In this document: positions 8,155-10,492 of the stretch, in pieces
Position numbering within the stretch: position 1 is the stretch's first letter
How the letters are laid out: every line of letters starts with the position of its first letter
The notes under the pieces: generated by a model
The model's database searches: none
What the model was told of the DNA's origin: nothing
The model's input: the letters and a program-made list of their open reading frames with translations, nothing else
Position numbers and translations under genes: made by a program
From: Actinomycetota bacterium
GTDB lineage: Bacteria > Actinomycetota > Actinomycetes > Nanopelagicales > Nanopelagicaceae
DNA length: 13,089 bases
Reading direction: 5' to 3'
NCBI GenBank assembly: GCA_029978425.1
Contig: JAPOJL010000015.1
Location: 1 to 13,089 of the forward strand

Positions 8155-10492
<2,338 letters not shown>

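Follow-up and report, generated by a model that had tools for sequence, protein, structure and literature searches.

The locus analysed here raises the question of whether a TGA codon lying inside pgk, the gene for phosphoglycerate kinase (PGK), belongs to the gene as it exists in the cell or only to its assembled sequence. The codon takes the place of the third glycine of the GGGDS loop, which we take to be nucleotide-binding in PGK. A stop that was both real and suppressed would make PGK a rare natural example of core metabolism dependent on nonsense suppression, and a central glycolytic enzyme would then rely on suppression within its nucleotide-binding loop.

The pgk frame and its neighbourhood

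The window, that is the whole stretch of 13,089 nucleotides under analysis, comprises the end of uvrB followed by uvrA, uvrC, rapZ, yvcK, whiA, gap, pgk, tpiA, secG, rbpA and opcA. The opcA gene is located on the strand opposite to the rest of the locus, and uvrB is present within the window as a fragment only. The names uvrB, rbpA and opcA are presumptive. A scan with NCBIfam models, which left out uvrB and opcA, returned matches over cut-off for uvrA, uvrC, rapZ, yvcK, whiA, gap, tpiA and secG, and no match for rbpA. All genes of the window other than pgk are open, and no tRNA gene was found within the window. The records closest to this DNA come from metagenome-assembled actinobacteria that bear the label Actinomycetota bacterium or Candidatus Nanopelagicaceae; Planktophila stands lower among the closest records, and the labels Clavibacter, Streptomyces and Bifidobacterium that also occur there look wrong. 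The window probably comes from a freshwater actinobacterium of the Nanopelagicaceae type.

Reading of the frame and alignment of homologues place the TGA exactly where a preliminary description of this DNA had put it, and the architecture that it had given for the gene, with 359 codons before the stop, 42 conserved codons after it and a TAA 22 bases ahead of tpiA, was recovered in full (Table 1). The TAA occupies positions 10490-10492 and the tpiA ATG begins at 10515. Solved PGK structures align to residues 6-401 of the frame when an X is placed at the stop. The pgk alignment with G060, the nearest genome found, runs without gaps over 1209 bases; no frameshift was seen in this alignment, and the frame is otherwise open, with no second in-frame stop. 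The description had also held that pgk carries no frameshift or other lesion and that the flanking gap and tpiA genes are intact, and these statements are borne out, gap and tpiA both being open and over the cut-off of their NCBIfam models. For the piece of pgk that precedes the stop, the sole NCBIfam match is a bifunctional PGK/TPI model, under that model's cut-off. The TTG start of pgk at 9284 overlaps the stop of gap, and this four-base overlap of a TTG start on a TGA stop (9284-9287) has a counterpart between rapZ and yvcK (6212-6215).

Table 1. Positions of pgk, its in-frame TGA and the two flanking genes in the window.
Feature	Positions	Strand	Structure or basis
gap, intact glyceraldehyde-3-phosphate dehydrogenase, stop TGA	8280..9287	+	Frame, NCBIfam model
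pgk (phosphoglycerate kinase) frame	9284..10492	+	TTG start, 359 codons, TGA, 42 codons, TAA
In-frame TGA, residue 360, third glycine of GGGDS	10361..10363	+	Frame reading, homologue alignment
Conserved 42-codon tail of pgk with TAA	10364..10492	+	Comparison with homologues and G060
tpiA, intact triose-phosphate isomerase	10515..11291	+	Frame, NCBIfam model

Conservation of the codon and constraint on the gene

We performed a protein search with the pgk translation, an X standing at the stop, and retained the best 120 of 8000 scored candidates. Among these listed matches, glycine occupies the stop position and GGGDS is kept in 120 of 120. The closest of them, P0001, has 3 further residue differences from the window and P0002 has 4, one of which is the start methionine of P0002; both are about 99% identical to the window, and the counts leave out the first five residues, which P0002 lacks. 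The protein collection consists of clusters, P0001 representing 118 member sequences, so that a truncated sister could hide inside such a cluster. At the DNA level, the codon encodes glycine in all 69 of the related loci whose alignment covers it, out of a set of 80 in which 5 align only partially and 6 give no alignment, and all four glycine codons occur across the 69. The pgk gene of G060, with 92.06% DNA identity, is open and has no stop. The stop is thus shared by 0 of the 120 listed proteins and 0 of the 69 covering loci, and the comparison of pgk across relatives, named as a check in the preliminary description, found the kin examined intact. A search with the truncated protein as query revealed no homologue of truncated length, the 120 proteins listed measuring 376 to 402 aa. 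A viral collection scanned for the stop site gave 0 matches, in keeping with the chromosomal nature of pgk. Among the matches listed from genomes of the family, stops in pgk were seen only in G095 and G070; both sit at aligned residues 3-4, no further in than the start, and were rejected as lying outside the gene body.

The sequence on both sides of the stop is conserved. Comparison with G060 gives 4 differences in the 42-codon tail, all of them synonymous, and 68 synonymous plus 15 nonsynonymous differences in the 359 codons before the stop. In seven homologues compared over the tail, the residues differ from the window at 0 of 42 positions in P0001, P0002, P0003, P0009 and P0011, and at 1 of 42 in each of P0049 and P0050. 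Outside the stop, pgk has a dN of 0.0176 and a dS of 0.311 relative to G060. The resulting dN/dS of about 0.06 is the highest among nine genes that gave a usable ratio, the other eight being at or below about 0.025; these substitution counts leave out opcA (other strand), yvcK (gapped alignment) and uvrB (fragment only). The intact P0001 carries the residue of the window at 14 of the 15 positions where the window and G060 differ, and these differences therefore predate the stop and do not represent decay. A decayed pseudogene is not supported, in that pgk has no frameshift, no other stop and, in its tail, 0 of 42 codons with a nonsynonymous change against G060. No sign of decay was found, and these comparisons leave three readings of the stop: an error, a mutation of very recent date, or decoding of the codon.

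The second of these possibilities is a real nonsense mutation, very recent and private to one cell or strain. Such an allele would encode a PGK of 359 residues that lacks the end of the nucleotide-binding loop together with the last 42 residues and is inactive; its lineage would be dying or living without the PGK step of glycolysis. The undecayed tail, the intact kin and the lack of a truncated-length homologue among the proteins listed are also compatible with this scenario, as is the clean remainder of the contig described below. The distribution of pgk argues against it, however: matches occur in 283 of the 296 genomes that make up the family to which the kin genome G001 belongs (one match in 273 genomes and two in 10, with none in the other 13), and each of six kin genomes has one. 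The neighbouring gap and tpiA are intact, and an inactivating variant should be rare in the population that a consensus samples. We consider a nonsense allele unlikely, if second in probability to an error.

Decoding of UGA at the stop

The third possibility, that the codon is decoded, takes two forms. In the first, a code change or programmed recoding would make UGA specify glycine or selenocysteine, and the fall of the stop on a glycine position is compatible with UGA read as glycine. Such a code is described for Gracilibacteria and Absconditabacteria in passages of PMC8629427, and the likeness to these lineages lies in UGA at a glycine position. The window differs from them in that only one site is seen, TGA terminates four neighbouring genes (uvrC, rapZ, yvcK and gap), and release factor 2 (RF2) is over cut-off in five of the six kin genomes, the sixth, G063, having a weaker match only. 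The UGA=Gly code (NCBI table 25) is not supported, on the basis of these four terminators and of RF2 in the kin.

Selenocysteine fares no better. None of the 6 kin genomes has a SelA match over cut-off, the E. coli and M. jannaschii controls being positive; G060 and G001 give three short matches that score about 18 bits, under the cut-off of 22.8. The tRNA-Sec model gives weak matches in all six kin genomes and equally in 14 of 14 controls; it exceeds the gathering threshold in one kin genome (G063), in a gene that ARAGORN identifies as tRNA-Ser. No SECIS-like hairpin was found after the UGA, where the fold over 10361-10430 has a z of 0.90 against shuffles. A selenoprotein is not supported, with SelA over cut-off in none of the kin and no fold after the UGA better than shuffles. 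Nor is there support for an RNA element at this site, since no Rfam family reaches gathering within the window and the RNA around the stop folds no better than shuffles (z -1.17). Taken together, a code change or programmed recoding has next to no chance of accounting for the codon.

In the second form, the stop would be real and suppressed, either by a suppressor tRNA, the cell's own or phage-borne, or by leaky decoding of UGA by tRNA-Trp, and enough full-length PGK would be made. The frame and the tail, both fully kept, are in line with suppression. Among the tRNAs called in the nearest genome no support for it was seen. G060 has 36 matches to tRNA families, of which 35 are called by ARAGORN and the uncalled one is located at a contig edge. 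None of the 35 has a UCA anticodon, in a set that is incomplete (Asp, Glu and Tyr tRNAs were not seen). The tRNA-Trp of G060 has a 5-bp anticodon stem when folded; the form shown to read UGA has a 4-bp anticodon stem, according to PMC13092985, and a UGA-reading tRNA-Trp of that form is not supported in G060. In addition, tryptophan in place of this invariant loop glycine would probably impair PGK, and no gene of the window other than pgk is interrupted. Suppression of a real stop is very improbable, and it is scarcely to be expected that the strain carries the TGA and obtains full-length PGK through a suppressor or a UGA-reading tRNA.

Stop-codon readthrough of PGK has a fungal precedent in Ustilago maydis (Freitag et al. 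2012, cited in PMC3798809), where, in the passages of PMC3798809 concerned, it produces a C-terminal extension that ends in a peroxisomal signal. In both cases pgk is the gene that carries the stop codon. Unlike in the fungal case as described there, the stop of the window lies inside a conserved loop, belongs to a bacterial enzyme and occurs in no relative examined. Among the options put forward in the preliminary description, an error and a recent nonsense mutation fit the results, whereas nothing positive was obtained for suppression or readthrough.

Sequence quality and origin of the stop

The quality of the contig was assessed at 1582 invariant columns from ten genes, invariant meaning the same in at least 25 other sequences, counted from residue 6 onwards and after alignments covering less than 80% of a gene had been dropped. 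The window departs from these columns at one position, the TGA stop, which sets the stop off from chance; for the nine other focal sequences the number of departures ranges from 0 to 7. With 0 other private changes, the contig looks clean apart from the stop, and there is no pointer to generally poor sequence.

Lone stops in the body of a gene were found in 2 of 704 kin gene copies, counting those whose alignment spans 80% or more of the protein encoded in the window. They affect rapZ and tpiA, and both lie on L078, a kin contig of 8.6 kb whose title states a coverage of 9. Lone in-body stops do occur, then, in assembled contigs of this clade. The two stops fall at aligned residues 205 (rapZ) and 226 (tpiA), and the remainder of both genes is conserved. 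Like the pgk TGA, each is the only interruption of a gene of this locus that is otherwise conserved, and neither was seen among the other aligned kin; the difference is that L078 carries two such genes on one contig at coverage 9, whereas the window carries one. Two other stops, in pgk of contig L062 (residue 3) and in uvrC of L028 (residue 635 of 637), were rejected as end effects. A lone stop in a conserved environmental gene calls for inspection of very close relatives and of the reads before recoding is claimed.

We give a probability of roughly three in four to the TGA being a one-base consensus error and no functional feature of pgk. The error would have entered through a read, the library or the assembly, for example at low depth at one base; the source cells would keep an intact pgk, and the reads of the contig would be expected to carry a glycine codon, as the kin do. 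A consensus error is favoured because the stop is alone and absent from every visible relative site in a gene that is conserved on both sides of it, and in our judgement a single error of this kind takes no more than poor coverage of one position. Two observations run against an error, namely that the contig looks clean outside the stop and that pgk has a higher dN/dS than the other eight genes, although the differences behind it are mostly shared with the intact P0001. A truncated sister within the P0001 cluster would weigh in the same direction.

Identity between the window and G060 varies along the locus. In bins of 500 bases it amounts to 90-97% over positions 1-5500, 76-82% over 5501-7500 (rapZ, yvcK and the start of whiA), 88-95% over 8001-11000 and 82-92% after 11000. 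The dS relative to G060 is 2.6 for rapZ, 0.28 for uvrA and 0.31 for pgk. A recombined block, in the window or in G060, or else a chimeric joint in either assembly would explain this mosaic of identity.
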